Assembly: GCA_026392155.1 (NCBI GenBank)
Contig: JAPLCP010000079.1
Span: forward strand, 137,618 to 201,617
DNA: 64,000 nucleotides
Direction: 5' to 3'
DNA from: Armatimonadota bacterium
Lineage (GTDB): Bacteria > Armatimonadota > Armatimonadia > Armatimonadales > Armatimonadaceae
The position numbers and the translations under genes were made by a program. The notes under the pieces are model-generated. The model was given only the letters and a program-made list of their open reading frames with translations. It was not told the DNA's origin and did no database searches. Below are positions 8,812 to 48,999 of this stretch, piece by piece (position 1 is the first letter of the stretch; every line of letters begins with the position of its first letter).

Positions 8812-9774
8812 CTAAAATAGCTTGGCGTTTGGGTTGAACTCGATCTTAGCATTGCGAGCCATCTCCCCGAGCCACTTTTGTACGGCTTGTGGCTCGTTGA
8901 GCTTCGCATTAACTTGCTCTTTTTTGTACTTAGCTTTCTCTGCGGCGCTGATATCAGAGCCTTTTTCGAGAAGCTTGATGATATGCCAGCCAAACTGGCT
9001 CTTGATCACGGGGCTAATATCGCCGGGCTTCTGAAGGGCAAAAGCCGCCTTCTCAAAGTCTTGATCGAAGACTCCCTTACCGACCCACGGGAGCTCACCT
9101 CCCATCGCACCGCTTCCCTTATCGTCGGAGAACTGCTTAGCAGCCTCGTCAAACTTGAGCTTTCCAGCCTTGATATCCGCAAGAATCTGATCCACACGAA
9201 CTTTTTGATCTTCTTCTTTCTTCTTAAGCTGCTCCGGCGTCATCGGGGTTGCCTGCTCCGGCGTCGGCCCCAGCGGCTGGGTTGCCAGGAGAATATGAGC
9301 AAAGCGCCCCTGTCCCTCACGCCCAGGAACGATCTTGATCAAGAACTTTTCAAAAGACTTTCGGGCAAGCAAGTTTAGGCGTACGGTCTGGGTCACTTCC
9401 GCATCCGTTAGACCAAACTCACGCGTGATCTCCGCGAAGGTCATCATCTTGCCACTTTGTGCCATCTGAGCTACGACCTTGGCCTTCTCTTCTTTGACTT
9501 TCTCCGCAAGCTCAGAAGCCGTGACACTAACACCCGCTTTTTTGGCTTCCTGCTCAATCACGATCTTCTGAATCATCTCCGGGACAACACGCCGTGCCAG
9601 GGTTCCACTAAGCTGTTTCTTAATATCCGATGCCGTGATATTGACCCCATTGTAGCGTGCGATCACACTGGAAGACATCGCAGCAGGCTTGGCAGAGGGC
9701 TTGGCCGCAGGCTTTTTGTTGCCTTGGGGGGCAACTGCCAACACCAGGGCAATCGTCATGGTTGAAACTATCAT
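8812..9774 (-). CDS. Parvulin-type peptidyl-prolyl isomerase (SurA/PrsA-like)
   Basis: The 320-aa product begins MIVSTMTIALVLAVAP (short signal peptide), then a Lys/Pro/Ala linker, an SurA-N-like helical chaperone domain (SVIARYNGVNITASDIKKQL... to residue 150) and a parvulin domain: GRFAHILLAT, FDEAAKQFSDDKGSGAMGGELPWVGKGVFDQDFEKAAFAL, PGDISPVIKSQFGWHIIKLLE. These are the family landmarks (the His-Ile start, the GG-L-G-W stretch and the FGWHII end). It should help fold outer-membrane or secreted proteins in the periplasm. The start has a strong AGGAGAAAGG Shine-Dalgarno. It is a monocistronic unit directly downstream of the rpoC terminator. Confidence 0.88.
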   Translation of the reverse strand: MIVSTMTIALVLAVAPQGNKKPAAKPSAKPAAMSSSVIARYNGVNITASDIKKQLSGTLARRVVPEMIQKIVIEQEAKKAGVSVTASELAEKVKEEKAKVVAQMAQSGKMMTFAEITREFGLTDAEVTQTVRLNLLARKSFEKFLIKIVPGREGQGRFAHILLATQPLGPTPEQATPMTPEQLKKKEEDQKVRVDQILADIKAGKLKFDEAAKQFSDDKGSGAMGGELPWVGKGVFDQDFEKAAFALQKPGDISPVIKSQFGWHIIKLLEKGSDISAAEKAKYKKEQVNAKLNEPQAVQKWLGEMARNAKIEFNPNAKLF

Positions 9775-42260: not shown

Positions 42261-43642
42261 GTAATTCCGCATTGTCCCCCCGCCGGGCGGGGGTTAGGGG
42301 GGCGGATAAATCCCCCAATATCGTCTTCATCCTCGCCGATGATCTCGGCGTGCTTGACCTGGGGTGCCAAGGGAGCACGTTCTATGAGACGCCGAACCTG
42401 GATGGATTGGCGCACGAGGGCATGCGTTTCACCAGCGCCTATGCCGCATGCCCAGTCTGCTCCCCGACACGGGCCGCAGCGCTCACGGGAAAGTGGCCGC
42501 AACGCACGGGGATCACGGACTATATCAGTGAGGCAATTGGCAAGCTCGGCGGAACAAAACCAGGCTATCCCCTGCTCTGTCCGCCCGCGGCAGACAAACT
42601 GAGCCTATCGGAAACCACGATTGCTAAGAAACTCAAAAGCACGGGCTACGCGACGGGTTTTGTGGGCAAGTGGCACCTCGGTGGCGAGGGAACGCTCCCG
42701 GAAAACCATGGCTTTGACTTCAGTGTCGGCGGCGATGACCGTGGCGGCAATGCCCATGTCGGGCCGAGTAAGCTCCACAATCTTGAGCTAAAGCCGGGCG
42801 AGTGGCTGATGGATCGGCTCACGGATAAAGCGATTGAGTTTGTGGTGCAGAGCAAGGACAAGCCGTTTCTGCTCTGGTTCACCCCCTACGACCCACACAC
42901 GCCGCTGGTTGGCAAGCCGGAGCTGGTAAAAAAATACGAGGCAAAGGCCGCCAAGCTCACGGCAGAGTTTCGCGACGAGCCGCCACGCAAAGACCGACGA
43001 ACGCAGACGCATGCCGTCTATGCTGCGATGCTGGAGGACATGGACCGCAACCTCGGACGGCTCTTTGCAATGCTCCCCGAGAACACACTCGTGATCTTTA
43101 CGTCGGACAACGGTGGCCTCTCGACCTCGGAGGGCTCCCCGACCAGCAACGCGCCGTACCGTGCGGGCAAGGGCTGGCTATACGAGGGTGGCATCCGCGA
43201 GCCGCTCCTCGTGAAGTGGCCCGGCGTCGTTAAGCCAGGCACCACTAGCGACTCGCTTGCCATCACCTGCGACTTCTTCCCGACGTTTCTGGAGGCCGCT
43301 GGCTTGCGCCCCGAGAAGCCCAACGGGGTGAGCCTGGTTCCTGTGTTTCGGGGCAAGAAGCTTGCGCCACGCCCGCTTTTCTGGCACTATCCGCACTATG
43401 GCAACCAAGGTGGCGGGATGGCCGCCGCCCTCCGCGACGGCGACTGGAAGCTGATCGAGTGGTTCGTCACTGAGCGCATCGAGCTCTACAACCTGAAATC
43501 AGACCCCGGCGAGCAGAAAAATCTCGCAGCGCAGGAGCCAGCGCGTGTGAAGGCAATGCAGGCTACGCTCCATGCCTGGCAGAAGTCCGTGGACGCCAAG
43601 TTCCCTATCAAAAACCCCAACCCAAAGAGTGAGGCAAAGTAA
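42257..43642 (+). CDS. Sulfatase with palindrome-derived N-terminus
   Basis: The 461-aa product has NIVFILADDLGVLDLGCQG, CSPTR at Cys68-Arg72, GKWHLGGEGTLPENHGFDF, FLLWFTPYDPHTPL, LVIFTSDNGGLSTSEGSP and YEGGIREPLLVKWPG. This set is typical of N-acetylgalactosamine-6- or aryl-sulfatases. The first residues (MSNSA) lead straight into LSPRRAGVRG encoded by a type-A palindrome, so no signal peptide is present; the repeat may have replaced or destroyed one. It overlaps the upstream gene by 4 bp and the GH20 gene follows 1 bp after its stop. Confidence 0.88.
   Translation: MSNSALSPRRAGVRGADKSPNIVFILADDLGVLDLGCQGSTFYETPNLDGLAHEGMRFTSAYAACPVCSPTRAAALTGKWPQRTGITDYISEAIGKLGGTKPGYPLLCPPAADKLSLSETTIAKKLKSTGYATGFVGKWHLGGEGTLPENHGFDFSVGGDDRGGNAHVGPSKLHNLELKPGEWLMDRLTDKAIEFVVQSKDKPFLLWFTPYDPHTPLVGKPELVKKYEAKAAKLTAEFRDEPPRKDRRTQTHAVYAAMLEDMDRNLGRLFAMLPENTLVIFTSDNGGLSTSEGSPTSNAPYRAGKGWLYEGGIREPLLVKWPGVVKPGTTSDSLAITCDFFPTFLEAAGLRPEKPNGVSLVPVFRGKKLAPRPLFWHYPHYGNQGGGMAAALRDGDWKLIEWFVTERIELYNLKSDPGEQKNLAAQEPARVKAMQATLHAWQKSVDAKFPIKNPNPKSEAK
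42272..42302. repeat. Type-A2 GC palindrome in frame (sulfatase N-terminus)
   Basis: TTGTCCCCCCGCC with GGGCGGGGGTTAGGGGGG, read as LSPRRAGVRG in the same frame as the copies at 35111 and 36641. Confidence 0.8.
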
Positions 43643-43643
43643 A

Positions 43644-45797
43644 GTGCTTTTAACTGCCCTGATGGCAAGTGCCCTAACCCTGGCAACGCAGCCCCCTGCT
43701 ACCCTTTCCCTGATCCCCAAGCCAGTCTCTGTCACCCAAGCGAGCGGCGCATTTGTGCTCGATGAGCACGTCGTGATTGGCACGGATACCGCGAGCCGCC
43801 CCGCGGCAACGCTGCTCTCGGGCTGGCTGAAGGCGACCACGGGGCGTGCGACCAAGATCGCCAGCAAGGGCAGTATCACGATGAAGGTCAATCCGTCGCT
43901 GGCCAAGCTCGGTGCGGAGGGCTATCAGCTTGAGGTTAGCCCCAAAGGCGTGAGCTTGAGTGCCCCCAAGTACGCAGGGATTGTCAATGGCCTCCAGACC
44001 TTTCGCCAGCTCTGGCCGACGGGGAAAGTGCCGAAATTCACCCTACCCGCCCTCAAGATCGAGGATCAGCCAGCTTACGCCTGGCGCGGGATGATGCTGG
44101 ATGTCTCGCGCTACTTTATGGACAAGGCCTATGTCCTGCACTTTCTCGATATCATGGCCGCCCATAAGCTCAATGTTCTGCACCTGCATCTGATAGATGA
44201 CCAAGGCTGGCGGGTGGAGATCAAAAAATACCCCAAGCTCACCGAGATCGGGGGCTTTCGCGGCGAGGGCGCGGCGCGCGAGGGTGGCTTCTACACACAG
44301 GCCGATATCAAGGAGATGGTCGCCTACGCCGCGGCACGCAATATCACGATTGTCCCCGAGATCGAGCTCCCCGCCCACACGCTCTCGGCGGTCTGTGCCT
44401 ACCCGTGGCTCGCCTGCACCGGCAAGCAGCACACGATGCCCACAACCCACTTCATCTCCGACGATCTCTACTGTGCGGGGAAGGCGACCACCTGGACGTT
44501 TCTGAGCGATGTCTTGGGTGAGCTCTGTGCGCTGTTTCCGTCGCCGTACATCCATATCGGCGGTGATGAGGCCAAGTACACCAAGTGGAAAGCTTGCCCG
44601 GACTGCCAAAAGAAGAAGACCGAGCTCGGGCTGGCGGATGAGAAAGCACTCCAGGGCTGGATGACCCGCGAGGTCGAAGCGATCTTGGCGAAGAAAGGTC
44701 GGCGGATTCTGGGCTGGGACGAGATCCTGCGCTGCGGGGTGAGCCCGACAGCAGGGATCATGCCCTGGGCCGACCCGAAGGCGGCGGGCGATGCGGCCCG
44801 AAGCGGCAATCCCGTGATGATGGCCCTCACTGATCACTGCTACTTCGACTTTCCCGAGAGCAAGCTCCGGGGCGAGCTTCAGGGCGCTGGCTGGCGACCG
44901 CCGGTGACGCTCCAAGCCGCCTACGACTGGAACCCCGTGCCGACGGGCCTCACGCCAGAGCAGCAGAAGAATGTCATCGGAGTGCAGGGCTGCCTCTGGA
45001 CCGACATGTTCCTGCACAAGCCCGAGCTTAAAACAAACCCCGGCCCCGCACTCTACGGCGACTACTTCACGCTCCCCCGCGCCGCCGCCCTCGCCGAGGT
45101 GGCGTGGACCTCGCAGTCCCAGCGCAGCTTCCCGGACTTCACCGAGCGCATGAAGCGCCAGTATGTCCGCTACAGCGACTACGGCTGGAACTTCCGCCTG
45201 CCGCTCCCAGAGCTTGTGAGAAATGGCAACCAGGTAAGCGCGGTCTGCCCGATCGAGGGCGGCACCGTCCGCTACACCACCGACGGCACCGATCCTACGG
45301 CCAGCTCGCCGGAGCTCAAGGGCACCGTCACCGTCACGCGCTTCGAGGACTTCAAGGCCATCACGCTCGCCCCCGACGGCAAGCGCACCAGCCTGATCTT
45401 CGAGACCGTGGCTGCGGCAAATCAGTTCAAGCAATACGGCACCAAGCTCGGGGAGTGGAAATCGGGCAAAGTCGGCGACCGCAAGCCGCTCCCCGTCGAG
45501 TTCGACGCCACCGGCCTGATCTCCAGCGACGGCACCTACCAGGTTACTTTTGTCTACACAGGAGGCCGAGAGCGGCTGGACATTGATAAAGTCGAGGTCT
45601 TCCGCAACGCCGAAACCACAGCGCTGGCCACCGACACGCACCACGGCTTCACCGGCGGCGCAAAGAAAGACAACGCCTACACCCTAAAAATCAACGGCTA
45701 CCAGACCGGGGCGAGATTCACCGTCCGCGCCCACATCTACGGCGACGAAGGCAGTGACTCGAATGGGGTTGTGCTGATCAAGAAAATTTCGGACTAA
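43644..45797 (+). CDS. Beta-N-acetylhexosaminidase, GH20
   Basis: The product is about 717 aa. The N-terminal GH20b-like domain (LSLIPKPVSVTQASGAFVL... YAGIVNGLQTFRQL) is followed by the catalytic barrel: YAWRGMMLDVSRYFMDKAYVLHFLD, LNVLHLHLIDDQGWRVEIKKYPKLT, and HIGGDEA with the Asp308-Glu309 catalytic pair. The acetamido group of the substrate assists catalysis in this family. A C-terminal beta domain (residues 520-717) includes a chitobiase-C-like part. The GTG start at 43644 is 1 nt after the upstream stop; the N-terminus VLLTALMASALTLATQ is a weak signal peptide. It should release GlcNAc or GalNAc after the sulfatases act. Its last 23 codons are duplicated at 46831-46906. Confidence 0.92.
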   Translation: MLLTALMASALTLATQPPATLSLIPKPVSVTQASGAFVLDEHVVIGTDTASRPAATLLSGWLKATTGRATKIASKGSITMKVNPSLAKLGAEGYQLEVSPKGVSLSAPKYAGIVNGLQTFRQLWPTGKVPKFTLPALKIEDQPAYAWRGMMLDVSRYFMDKAYVLHFLDIMAAHKLNVLHLHLIDDQGWRVEIKKYPKLTEIGGFRGEGAAREGGFYTQADIKEMVAYAAARNITIVPEIELPAHTLSAVCAYPWLACTGKQHTMPTTHFISDDLYCAGKATTWTFLSDVLGELCALFPSPYIHIGGDEAKYTKWKACPDCQKKKTELGLADEKALQGWMTREVEAILAKKGRRILGWDEILRCGVSPTAGIMPWADPKAAGDAARSGNPVMMALTDHCYFDFPESKLRGELQGAGWRPPVTLQAAYDWNPVPTGLTPEQQKNVIGVQGCLWTDMFLHKPELKTNPGPALYGDYFTLPRAAALAEVAWTSQSQRSFPDFTERMKRQYVRYSDYGWNFRLPLPELVRNGNQVSAVCPIEGGTVRYTTDGTDPTASSPELKGTVTVTRFEDFKAITLAPDGKRTSLIFETVAAANQFKQYGTKLGEWKSGKVGDRKPLPVEFDATGLISSDGTYQVTFVYTGGRERLDIDKVEVFRNAETTALATDTHHGFTGGAKKDNAYTLKINGYQTGARFTVRAHIYGDEGSDSNGVVLIKKISD

Positions 45798-45801
45798 CAT
45801 C

Positions 45802-45834
45802 ATTGCCTAGCCGCCCAACGCGCGGCTAGGCAAT
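45802..45834 (+). terminator. Hairpin terminator after the GH20 gene
   Basis: ATTGCCTAGCCGC (45802-45814) and GCGGCTAGGCAAT (45822-45834) form a 13-bp perfect stem just after the GH20 stop. Only a weak T-tract follows. The remaining DNA to 45941 shows nothing recognisable. Confidence 0.7.
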
Positions 45835-45941
45835 ATTGCTATGTTGTCTAGGCCACGGTTGCCCATGCTAGGAAAACGTCCAAGATTTTCTCAAGAGTGT
45901 ACCTGCTTCACCCGCCGTCCCCATCTAAGGCGCGGATGGGA

Positions 45942-45947
45942 TAAAAT
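45942..45947 (+). promoter_or_regulatory. -10 element, predicted leaderless promoter of the two-gene cassette
   Basis: TAAAAT (context GGGATAAAATGT) ends 6 nt before ATG 45954. Confidence 0.55.
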
Positions 45948-45953
45948 GTACCG

Positions 45954-46478
45954 ATGCGTGAGTTGATCCTGACATACCTGCGTGGCGGAATGCCTGCTCT
46001 CACGCCTGCGTCCGGGGAGCGGCTTGCCGAAGCGGCATCACACTGTCTTGATGAGCAGGGGCATGAACTGCGTGTCGTCCTTGCGGTGGCGGGAAACCAC
46101 ACCGAGTCTTTTGTCTTGGAGCGCCTTCCCGTAGATGAAGTCATTCGACGCACCTACAACGACCCGGAAGAAGCCACCGAAGAAGGAGCCTGCGCGATTG
46201 CCATTCTCCTGGCACGGGAACTGACAGGCTGGAGCGTTGTGCGCCGCGCTCGCCGTGGCACGGGTTTTGATTACTACTTGGGAAGCGACCAGGCACTAGA
46301 TTTTCAAGCACGGCTGGAGGTTTCCGGGATTCGGCAAGGAACCCAAGCACAGATCGAAGCGCGGGTTCGTCAGAAACGAGCACAGACGACACAGTCGGAC
46401 AGCACTCTGGGGCACCTGAGCGCCTATGTGATTGTCGTAGAGTTCAGCCGCCCCGAAGCGAGGATAGAGAGACGATGA
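45954..46478 (+). CDS. Uncharacterised protein, first gene of a coupled pair
   Basis: I do not recognise a named family. The product is 174 aa, soluble and mixed alpha/beta. Visible patterns are VDEVIRRTYNDPEEATEEGACAIAILLARELTGW, then RRGTGFDYYLG followed by ARLEVSGI and, near the end, AYVIVVEFS. The spacing of Asp (GFDYYLG) and Glu (RLEVSG) across beta strands is reminiscent of PD-(D/E)xK nuclease cores, but no clear Lys completes the site, so this is only a hint. It has its own -10 element, follows the GH20 terminator and overlaps the next gene by 4 bp (ATGA), which implies a functional pair. Confidence 0.75.
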   Translation: MRELILTYLRGGMPALTPASGERLAEAASHCLDEQGHELRVVLAVAGNHTESFVLERLPVDEVIRRTYNDPEEATEEGACAIAILLARELTGWSVVRRARRGTGFDYYLGSDQALDFQARLEVSGIRQGTQAQIEARVRQKRAQTTQSDSTLGHLSAYVIVVEFSRPEARIERR

Positions 46479-46828
46479 CACTGGAACTGGAAGCGAAGCA
46501 CAACGAGGCGATGGCGCTGGTAGATCAAGCAGACGCCGCCCAGCGACGCCGTGACACGGTGCGCGAACAACAGCTACGGCACGAAGCCTTTTTGAAAGAA
46601 AAGGAAGTGGCGCTTGCCTGTGCGGAGCAAAAAGACACTCCCGCCGCGACTCTCGCCATTCTCCTCTGTAGCGCCGCCTCCCTCGCCAGCGAGACCGGCC
46701 AACCCCGCGAAGCCGAGCGCCTCATCGCCCGTGCGCTCTCCGGTGACCCGCCACACGCCCTCGCGGAAGAGCTTCGTGAGCTATGGGAGAAAGTGCGCCC
46801 TCAGCTCCGCAGCCTCCAAGCCGCCTGA
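46475..46828 (+). CDS. Uncharacterised TPR-like helical protein, second gene of the pair
   Basis: The 117-aa, all-helical product has two helical hairpins: HNEAMALVDQADAAQRRRDTVREQQLRHEAFLKEKEVALAC and AILLCSAASLASETGQPREAERLIARALSG. These look like TPR units (A-x3-A and G-x2-REAERLIARAL). It may bind the product of the overlapping upstream gene. The pair is bracketed by a duplicate of the GH20 tail, which suggests it entered this locus by insertion. Function unknown; a toxin/antitoxin-like or regulatory pair is possible but unsupported. Confidence 0.75.
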   Translation: MTLELEAKHNEAMALVDQADAAQRRRDTVREQQLRHEAFLKEKEVALACAEQKDTPAATLAILLCSAASLASETGQPREAERLIARALSGDPPHALAEELRELWEKVRPQLRSLQAA

Positions 46829-46830
46829 AA

Positions 46831-46906
46831 GTTCCGCCATGCCCATACCTACGGCGACGAAGGCAACGATTCCAATGGGGTTGTGCTGATCAAGAAAATT
46901 CTCTAG
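46831..46906 (+). pseudogene. Remnant of a GH20 3' end (duplicate of 45721-45797)
   Basis: The stretch reads FRHAHTYGDEGNDSNGVVL then IKKIL and a stop, against VRAHIYGDEGSDSNGVVL then IKKISD at the end of the intact GH20 gene. The DNA match is strong around TACGGCGACGAAGG and AATGGGGTTGTGCTGATC. It has third-position differences, so it comes from a diverged paralogue, not a fresh copy. No start or upstream coding remains. Confidence 0.75.
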
Positions 46907-47160
46907 CGGCGTATAAGCCTTCCCGCAGGAATGGAGAGTGCTCCTGCGCGAAGCACTCCCATCCTAAAGGGGACGAACTTACCCCCTTCGCGGAGCGTAC
47001 CCAGAGGGTGCCCAGGTCGCCGTCTCAGCGGCGGGGGGAGGTGCGCCGTCGCTTGACGATCACCAGCCCTCCCCTAAGTGGATGAACCTAAGCGATCCGG
47101 GATGTAAAAAACGCAATGGCTACGGCTTTTAATGGGCGGCAATAGGATTTTCAGGACGCG
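46907..47160. other. Gene-free stretch with short inverted repeats
   Basis: There is no plausible gene. GAGTGCT/AGCACTC (46937-46959 region) forms a small hairpin, and GGGTGCCCAGG, GCGGCGGGGGG and CCCTCCCC blocks resemble decayed pieces of the intergenic repeats found elsewhere in the window. No promoter for the next sulfatase is evident. Confidence 0.5.
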
Positions 47161-48999
47161 ATGCCGAATCTCTGGACAATGCAACCTGTCCTACCTCCGC
47201 GCCCCAATATCGTCTTTATCCTCTCCGATGATCTGGGCTGGGCGGACACGGAGCTGTATGGCAAGACGAAGCTCTACAAGACGCCGAACTTGCTGCGCCT
47301 TGCCAAGCGCGGGATGGTGTTCTCACGGGCGTACTCGGCGAGCCCGCTGTGCTCCCCGACGCGGGCGAGTATTCTGACAGGACAGAGCCCAGCGCGGATT
47401 GGAATCACCGCGCCCAACTGCCACCTGCCCGAGATCAAGCTTGCCGCATCGGTGCAGAAAAACGCGCCTCCGACGGCAAAAGCCTTGCCGTGCGAGAGTG
47501 CGACGCGGCTTAACACGAGCTACGTGACGCTGGCGGAGACGCTGAAGTCGGCAGGGTACGCGACAGCGCACTTTGGCAAGTGGCACTTGGGCGCGGAGCC
47601 CTACTCGCCGCTTCAGCAGGGCTTTGAGGTTGATCTGCCGCACACCCCCGGCCCCGGCCCCGCGGGGAGCTTTGTCGCCCCCTGGAAGTTTCCCAACTTC
47701 AAAGAGCACACGCCAAGTGAGCATATCGAGGACCGGATGGGCGACGAGGCCGTGGCCTGGATGACCAAGAACAAAGACAAGCCGTTCTTTCTCAACTACT
47801 GGCAGTTCTCGGTGCACGCCCCGTTCGATGCCAAAAAATCGCTGATAGAGAAGTACAAAGGGCTTGTAGACCCGAAAAGCCCGCAGCGTAGCCCCACCTA
47901 TGCCGCGATGGTGGAGTCCATGGACGACAGCGTCGGCAAGCTTCTGGATGCGCTGGATCGCCTCGGGATTGCGGATAAAACGGCGATTGTCTTTCTCGCG
48001 GACAACGGCGGCAACATGTACAACACGGTCGACGGCACCACGCCCACCAGCAATGCCCCGCTCCGAGGCGGCAAAGCGACGGTGTATGAGGGCGGGATTC
48101 GCGTCCCGTGCGTCGTGAGCTGGCCCAGCGTCACCAAGCCGGGCTCGCAGAACAACGAGGCAATAGTCCAGAGCACGGACTTCTACCCGACGATTCTGGA
48201 GCTGCTCAAGCTCAAGCCCGAAGGAAATCAAAGCTTCGATGGGCGCAGCATTGTCCGTGCTCTCAGCGGCAAGTCGCTCGCGCCCAAGCCGATCTTCACG
48301 TTCTTCCCCCACAGCCCCAATGTCCCCGACACGCTCCCGCCCGCCGTTACCGTTCACTCCGGCGACTGGAAGCTGATCCGGCTCTTTCACCAAGGAGAAA
48401 ACGGCGCACATGCCTACCAGCTCTACAACCTCAAGGACGATCTGGGCGAGGTAAATAACCTCGCGGCCAGTCAGCCGGAGCGGGTGAAGCAGCTCGATGC
48501 GCTGATCGCGGGATTTCTCAAAGACACCAAAGCGGTCGTGCCGCTCCCCAATCCCGCCTACCATGCAAACGCGAAGCCCGAAGCGGCGACTCCGCCTGGT
48601 GCTGATCCCTTGGGAGGCTGGAAGGCACGTGGCTGTGAGGCAGTTATCAAAGACGGCGCATTGATCGTCACCGGGACCAGCCCGATGCCGTTTCTGGGGT
48701 TCGCCGCGGGGAAAATCGGCGGCCCGACGACAGTCTCGCTCCGTGTGAAGAGTTCGGGCGGAGGCGAAGGCAAGGTCGAGTGGCTCCCGACGCCGCAAGC
48801 CACCGACAAGGCAAAGTCGGTCGCCTTTACCCTCAAGGCCAGCGGGGAGTGGCAGGAGCTTACCGTCACGCTGCCCGCCGAGGGCACACGGGGCATCCTA
48901 CGGCTGTATCTCCCCGCACAAAAAGACCCTCTCACCTTGGACTGGATTGAGGTCAAACCAACCCAAGGTAGATCCCAACGCTGGAATTTTGACAAATGA
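47161..48999 (+). CDS. Sulfatase with C-terminal beta-sandwich domain
   Basis: The 612-aa product has [25 protein letters not shown] at Cys64-Arg68, [45 protein letters not shown] and [14 protein letters not shown], matching the sulfatase group that includes N-acetylgalactosamine-6- and iduronate-like enzymes. Residues 480-605 ([23 protein letters not shown]... [22 protein letters not shown]) look like a carbohydrate-binding jelly roll. No signal peptide is seen at the ATG 47161 start ([16 protein letters not shown]). It overlaps the next sulfatase by 4 bp. Confidence 0.88.

Follow-up and report, generated by a model that had tools for sequence, protein, structure and literature searches.

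A mobile two-gene unit probably inserted, with long target duplication, at the 3' end of a GH20 gene in an Armatimonadota bacterium

The DNA analysed here, called the window throughout, is a stretch of 64,000 nucleotides (nt) from an Armatimonadota bacterium, and the subject of this report is a two-gene cassette in it which is located between a gene for a GH20 beta-N-acetylhexosaminidase and a gene for a sulfatase. It was in this lineage that the cassette arrived, and part of the GH20 gene's end now stands on both sides of it. Our data indicate, with a probability of roughly two in three, that a mobile two-gene unit was added at the 3' end of GH20 by insertion with long target duplication. The pair apparently represents an unnamed family of a nuclease-like and a TPR-like protein.

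Results

The end of the GH20 gene is repeated behind the cassette

It was observed that the tail of the GH20 gene recurs directly after the cassette, as a preliminary description of this DNA had reported. Positions 45729-45788 and 46841-46900 form an ungapped direct repeat of 60 nt, in which 54 of the 60 positions (90%) are identical. An independent search of the whole genome gave the copy at 46841-46900 as the single second match of the tail (E 1.9e-16), and chance similarity between tail and remnant was rejected on this value. The length of 75 bp given earlier is a little long, as firm homology extends over 60 nt and is gapped or uncertain beyond; upstream of 46841 towards 46829 the alignment requires gaps. 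The six mismatches lie at repeat positions 6, 8, 26, 27, 30 and 33, the final 27 nt being identical, and such clustering in the first 33 positions has a chance probability of about 0.02. The copies differ in three codons silently (CAC/CAT, GAC/GAT, TCG/TCC) and in two codons non-silently (ATC/ACC, AGT/AAC), which agrees with the earlier statement that the differences are partly silent. The frame of the remnant stays open to a TAG of its own at 46904-46906 and ends in KK-I-L-TAG, whereas the GH20 gene, which matches the Pfam models Glyco_hydro_20 (E 3e-97), Glyco_hydro_20b and CHB_HEX_C_1, ends in KK-I-S-D-TAA.

Between the repeat copies are found a leader of 156 nt and two open reading frames with an overlap of 4 nt (Table 1). 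The remnant starts at most 12 nt past the stop codon of gene 2, and alignment with relatives shows that gene 2 is complete at its C-terminus beside it. Third-position G+C is 0.59 and 0.68 in the cassette genes as compared to 0.74-0.80 in the neighbours. The leader contains an inverted repeat (arms 45795-45814 and 45822-45841) which perhaps acts as a transcription stop for GH20. A hairpin end as a general feature of such units was rejected, as the inverted repeat was not evident in the other leaders compared.

The sister species carries an empty site

One other species of the genus, here called the sister species, was available for comparison (genome G001, locus L021, minus strand). Its GH20 protein is 83% identical to that of the window. 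In the sister, the GH20 and sulfatase genes abut: the first stops at 9655 and the second starts at 9652, 2 nt apart; there is a single tail and no cassette. This is the empty site which had been proposed earlier as a check in relatives, and the idea that the remnant marks a boundary of gene turnover is borne out in the form of an insertion boundary. Positions 45789-47160 of the window are extra sequence relative to the sister. Insertion is the simpler polarity: had the sister lost the stretch between two tails by deletion, it would still carry the 254 nt that follow the remnant, and these are absent there. No usable outgroup was available for this polarity, the GH20 genes of other family members being only distant. 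A short GC-rich segment within the 254 nt, at 46977-47042, has copies scattered over both this genome and that of the sister and probably arrived as an insertion of its own; this REP-like segment folded no better than its shuffles (z 0.07).

Per 60 nt, the GH20 tail differs from the remnant at 6 positions and from the sister at 5, and the remnant differs from the sister at 7. The three tails are about equidistant, and the earlier claim that the remnant comes from an older GH20 paralogue does not follow from the differences; the remnant would fit equally well with a congener's allele or with a native end that decayed once displaced. The repeat copies may date from about the time of the species split, or one of them may come from a congener, or the remnant may have decayed after its displacement. 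It should be noted that the TAG stop and the C-terminal length are common to remnant and sister, and that the GH20 gene has one codon more and a TAA. These features weakly favour the remnant as the native, displaced end of GH20, and the present last codons of the gene (45789..45797) probably came in with the insert. The identity profile of GH20 against the sister showed no clear donor segment at the 3' end.

Another rearranged GH20 sequence was seen on contig C130 of this genome (L020:8158-9405, minus strand). An open reading frame of 415 amino acids consists there of three GH20 pieces and an unrelated C-terminus, the catalytic core being absent. The pieces match window positions 43794-43966, 45006-45185 and 45266-45406 at 84, 92 and 98.6%, and this rise in identity suggests gene conversion. 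The genes on either side of this reading frame are far apart in the sister genome.

A parallel case in Nostoc

The best support for considering the remnant as the native end comes from Nostoc. In Nostoc L052, the pair is located downstream of an alpha-2-macroglobulin-like gene, and the last 158 nt of that gene recur (98.7%) right after gene 2. The final codons differ, with ..LILEDGK stop in the gene and ..LVVEDKS stop in the remnant. Nostoc G058 (L153) is without the pair at this place; its gene ends in ..LVVEDKL stop, and the DNA behind it is that which follows the L052 remnant. G058 represents the pre-insertion state, which shows for L052 that the native end survives in the remnant, the pair having brought the new gene end with it; the remnant of the window can be read in the same way.

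Copies of the alpha-2-macroglobulin tail with a common start position set off an AbrB-PIN pair in Nostoc G047 and G050, and further small inserts in G058 and G060 have tail copies at their flanks. The present pair shares this insertion spot with AbrB-PIN and Phd-PIN-type pairs. The 3' end of this gene (L151-L154) was seen to be an insertion hotspot for toxin-antitoxin-type pairs and the present pair, with tail copies in between, and all of these copies begin at GCGATCGCATTATCGCC, a HIP1-like octamer.

Direct repeats flank other units

A census of flanking repeats was made around 77 units with 450 nt of flank on each side, counting direct repeats with E <= 1e-8; the controls were 1544 shifted positions on the same contigs. 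Flanking direct repeats were found at 9 of the 77 units, window included, as compared to 12 of the 1544 controls. Without the window the counts are 8/76 and 12/1544 (Fisher p 1.3e-6, a value that is indicative only, since the controls overlap each other). The scar is clear in Nostoc L052 (158 nt, 98.7%), in L071/L076, where 142-155 nt of the 5' end of a caspase-like gene are repeated, and in L088 (309 nt); it is less clear in L073, L115, L116 and L118. Around homologous units the repeats measure 60, 76, 142-155, 158 and 309 nt. Their sequences are unrelated between units, and some lie at the 5' ends of genes (L071/L076, L088). In other Nostoc genomes the target stretch of the caspase gene contains a dispersed repeat, and the search for an empty site there was uninformative.

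The gene pair is widespread, and gene 1 has a predicted nuclease fold

Relatives of the product of gene 1 (P0001) were kept at 80 loci out of 124 candidates. A relative of the product of gene 2 (P0002) comes directly after them in nearly all of the 80 loci, mostly with an overlap of 4 nt, and the surrounding genes are otherwise not conserved. The pair is widespread and patchily distributed. Its hosts include Cyanobacteria, Planctomycetota, Latescibacterota, Bacteroidota and others, and it is also carried by plasmids, one of which is conjugative. Within the phylum Armatimonadota a relative was present in 9 of 291 genomes, and no copy of gene 1 was found in the sister species or in close family members. 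This genome has two copies of gene 1, which are 51% identical to each other; a tree of gene 1 left the window copy unplaced. Phage records gave no match for the cassette genes, and predicted viral contigs contained just 7 relatives. In several phyla, homologs of gene 2 have a conserved C-terminal extension of about 250 residues without a Pfam match (L039, L040, L051, L060, L066, L089, L101, L110, L111, L114, L116).

No significant match of P0001 or P0002 was found among Pfam, NCBIfam or PADLOC models, and profile comparison of the cassette genes with the PDB gave no match. The structure model of P0001 has a mean predicted local distance difference test (pLDDT) score of 96. Foldseek matches of this model in the PDB are weak (E 0.0096 and above) and are mostly PD-(D/E)XK-type nucleases; they include tRNA-splicing endonuclease, lambda exonuclease, SPARDA, Rai1/DXO, MGME1 and a Cas4-like protein. 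D106, E122 and Q144 are invariant in the family and K141 is nearly so. P0001 is probably a nuclease of PD-(D/E)XK type, judged from the model, and K141 may take the role of the lysine that is missing from the E-x-K motif. The domain of P0002 is TPR-like.

Known defence systems are found near a number of these pairs, which were picked by hand and eye and do not constitute a random sample. Avs3a and proteins that resemble pAgo and GmrSD/SspE are among the neighbours of such relatives. The second copy in this genome (contig C70, L022:1581-9554, minus strand) is located directly behind the reverse transcriptase of a type XIII retron, a SWIM/BRCT protein and a HEAT/WGR-like protein, with which it apparently forms one operon. 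In a Mza-type locus of Mucilaginibacter pankratovii (L106), a homolog of gene 1 lies between MzaB and MzaC, and the domain of gene 2 forms the N-terminus of the Z1 protein MzaC as a fusion. The pair is probably involved in anti-phage defence or addiction, with the nuclease accompanied by a regulator or partner; its fit to a toxin-antitoxin system is limited to gene overlap and size.

Table 1. Features at the GH20 locus (positions in the window)
Feature	Position	Strand	Remark
GH20 beta-N-acetylhexosaminidase gene	43572..45797	+	741 amino acids, open reading frame from first ATG; real start may be further 3'
Left repeat copy, 3' end of GH20	45729..45788	+	
Final GH20 codons TCG GAC TAA	45789..45797	+	unlike remnant and sister species
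Cassette leader	45798..45953	+	no counterpart in sister species
Cassette gene 1 (P0001)	45954..46478	+	174 amino acids; predicted PD-(D/E)XK-type nuclease fold
Cassette gene 2 (P0002)	46475..46828	+	117 amino acids; TPR-like helical protein
Right repeat copy, GH20 tail remnant	46841..46906	+	with own TAG stop
REP-like short dispersed repeat	46977..47042	+	between remnant and sulfatase; similar copies in own and sister genome
Sulfatase gene	47161..48999	+	directly after GH20 at the empty site of the sister

Discussion

The insertion proposed here would have left GH20 with a complete reading frame, followed by the unit with its leader, and beyond the unit the last 60-75 nt or so of GH20 would stand once more, as a dead remnant. 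Of the two tails, it is more likely the remnant that represents the displaced native end, the current last codons having been brought by the unit. A likely route could be a single crossover between the resident tail and a circular or linear donor carrying a GH20 tail and the unit, which would give two tails with a shared core. This comes close in spirit to the earlier suggestion of recombination between two GH20 copies, but the piece shared is just the last 60-75 nt or so. The other earlier suggestion, that a tandem second hexosaminidase gene was replaced by the cassette and left its 3' end behind, is very improbable. As that suggestion would have it, the remnant is truly the 3' end of a GH20 gene and has a stop codon of its own, but no GH20 sequence adjoins it beyond the last 60-75 nt or so, gene 2 runs to its natural C-terminus immediately before it, the sister has one GH20 which adjoins the sulfatase, and the same duplication of a gene tail recurs beside unrelated genes elsewhere. 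The view of the remnant as a trace of a lost hexosaminidase is corrected by these observations.

It is unlikely, though it deserves some weight, that the pair has no special mobility and that a fragment of a congener (GH20 tail, leader and pair) was joined through GH20 homology on one side and illegitimately on the other. The near equidistance of tail, remnant and sister looks as if one tail came from a congener, and another GH20 mosaic is present in this genome on contig C130; such homology-assisted recombination alone would not account for the comparable scars at unrelated genes of Nostoc and other cyanobacteria, nor for the first insertion in the donor. Integration of integrase type, in which the GH20 3' end and the remnant would be attL and attR of a cis-mobilisable element that has lost its integrase, or was always without one, and relied on an integrase supplied in trans, is a doubtful alternative as well. 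Elements that integrate in the 3' ends of tRNA or coding genes restore the 3' end of the target gene. A repeat at a gene 3' end, a frame restored by new last codons and an identical core of 27 nt are what such integration would give, and the Nostoc cassettes in series, with gene-tail copies between them, resemble accretion at an att site. Against this, there is no integrase among the insert's open reading frames or the conserved neighbours, and the repeats vary in length, are unrelated in sequence and lie in some cases at gene 5' ends (L071/L076, L088), which is not expected from one specificity. It is improbable that the pair moves on its own as a minimal unit whose PD-(D/E)XK-type protein makes staggered breaks at chromosomal targets, so that the pair would be joined with a duplication of 60-300 nt of the adjoining gene and no transposase or integrase. 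An artefact of assembly or chance is hardly credible: the assembly is split into 228 contigs, but the copies differ at 6 of 60 positions, their flanks and stops differ, the match has E 1.9e-16, the cassette genes are intact and have relatives, and parallel cases exist in other assemblies.

A number of observations weigh against insertion with long target duplication by a mobile nuclease-like pair. No recombinase, att core or circular form was seen. Most units are without a flanking repeat, and either the scar is not universal or it fades; in an extra set of loci from the phylum and from viruses, none of the 7 units with usable flanks had one. Among the positives, L071 and L076 count one shared event, and the repeats at L115, L116 and L118 are possibly tandem or dispersed repeats. 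The native status of the remnant is argued from its stop codon and length alone, and by nucleotides it is the GH20 tail that is slightly nearer to the sister (5 against 7 differences). Every Foldseek E-value of P0001 is above 0.009, and serine (E-V-S) replaces the lysine of the E-x-K motif in its family. Many loci of the pair have no defence neighbours, those cited having been selected by hand.

The case bears on the way in which defence or addiction genes that carry no transposase or integrase spread from genome to genome. The scars beside relatives in unrelated bacteria suggest how such units move, and a conserved pair with duplicated gene ends beside unrelated targets, together with empty sites, provides a dated set of insertions on which the mechanism of joining can be tested. 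The present study also points to a pair which is apparently undescribed and is often found near known defence systems.

Comparison with known systems

Homologs of the pair occur inside the Mza locus of Mucilaginibacter L106 (PADLOC MzaB, MzaC, MzaE), whereas the pair in the window is without any Mza genes. In the model of P0001, helices and strands near D106, E122 and Q144 follow one another in an order that would fit the core of the PD-(D/E)XK superfamily; unlike that superfamily the protein has E-V-S for E-x-K and lacks the sequence matches that would place it there. Cis-mobilisable elements and islands have attL and attR direct repeats at gene 3' ends, restore the gene end and can accrete in tandem. 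The locus and its Nostoc parallel share these three features with them, but the pair has no integrase and its repeats vary from case to case and are found at some gene 5' ends.

A close likeness is seen with insertion with long target duplication, whose original description is said to be that of Nobusato et al. (2000, Gene 259:99-108). The insert, which may be a mobile unit similar to restriction-modification genes, has a predicted fold of nuclease type, some defence neighbours and no methyltransferase. Insertion with long target duplication was reported from the comparison of two Helicobacter pylori genomes for restriction-modification genes, with which it is reported to be frequently associated (PMC1643837, PMC3031569, PMC4978471). 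The case in the window resembles the described cases in having a small gene unit between neighbours, a flanking direct repeat of the target in the range of tens to hundreds of nt, an empty site in a close relative and variable repeat length among kin. It differs from the Helicobacter pylori cases in that the cargo, found in a different phylum, is an unnamed pair that lacks a methyltransferase, that the repeat copies are diverged and not fresh, and that the new gene end is on the left. The kind of event is one already known, and what is new here is the cargo, a family that appears to be unnamed.

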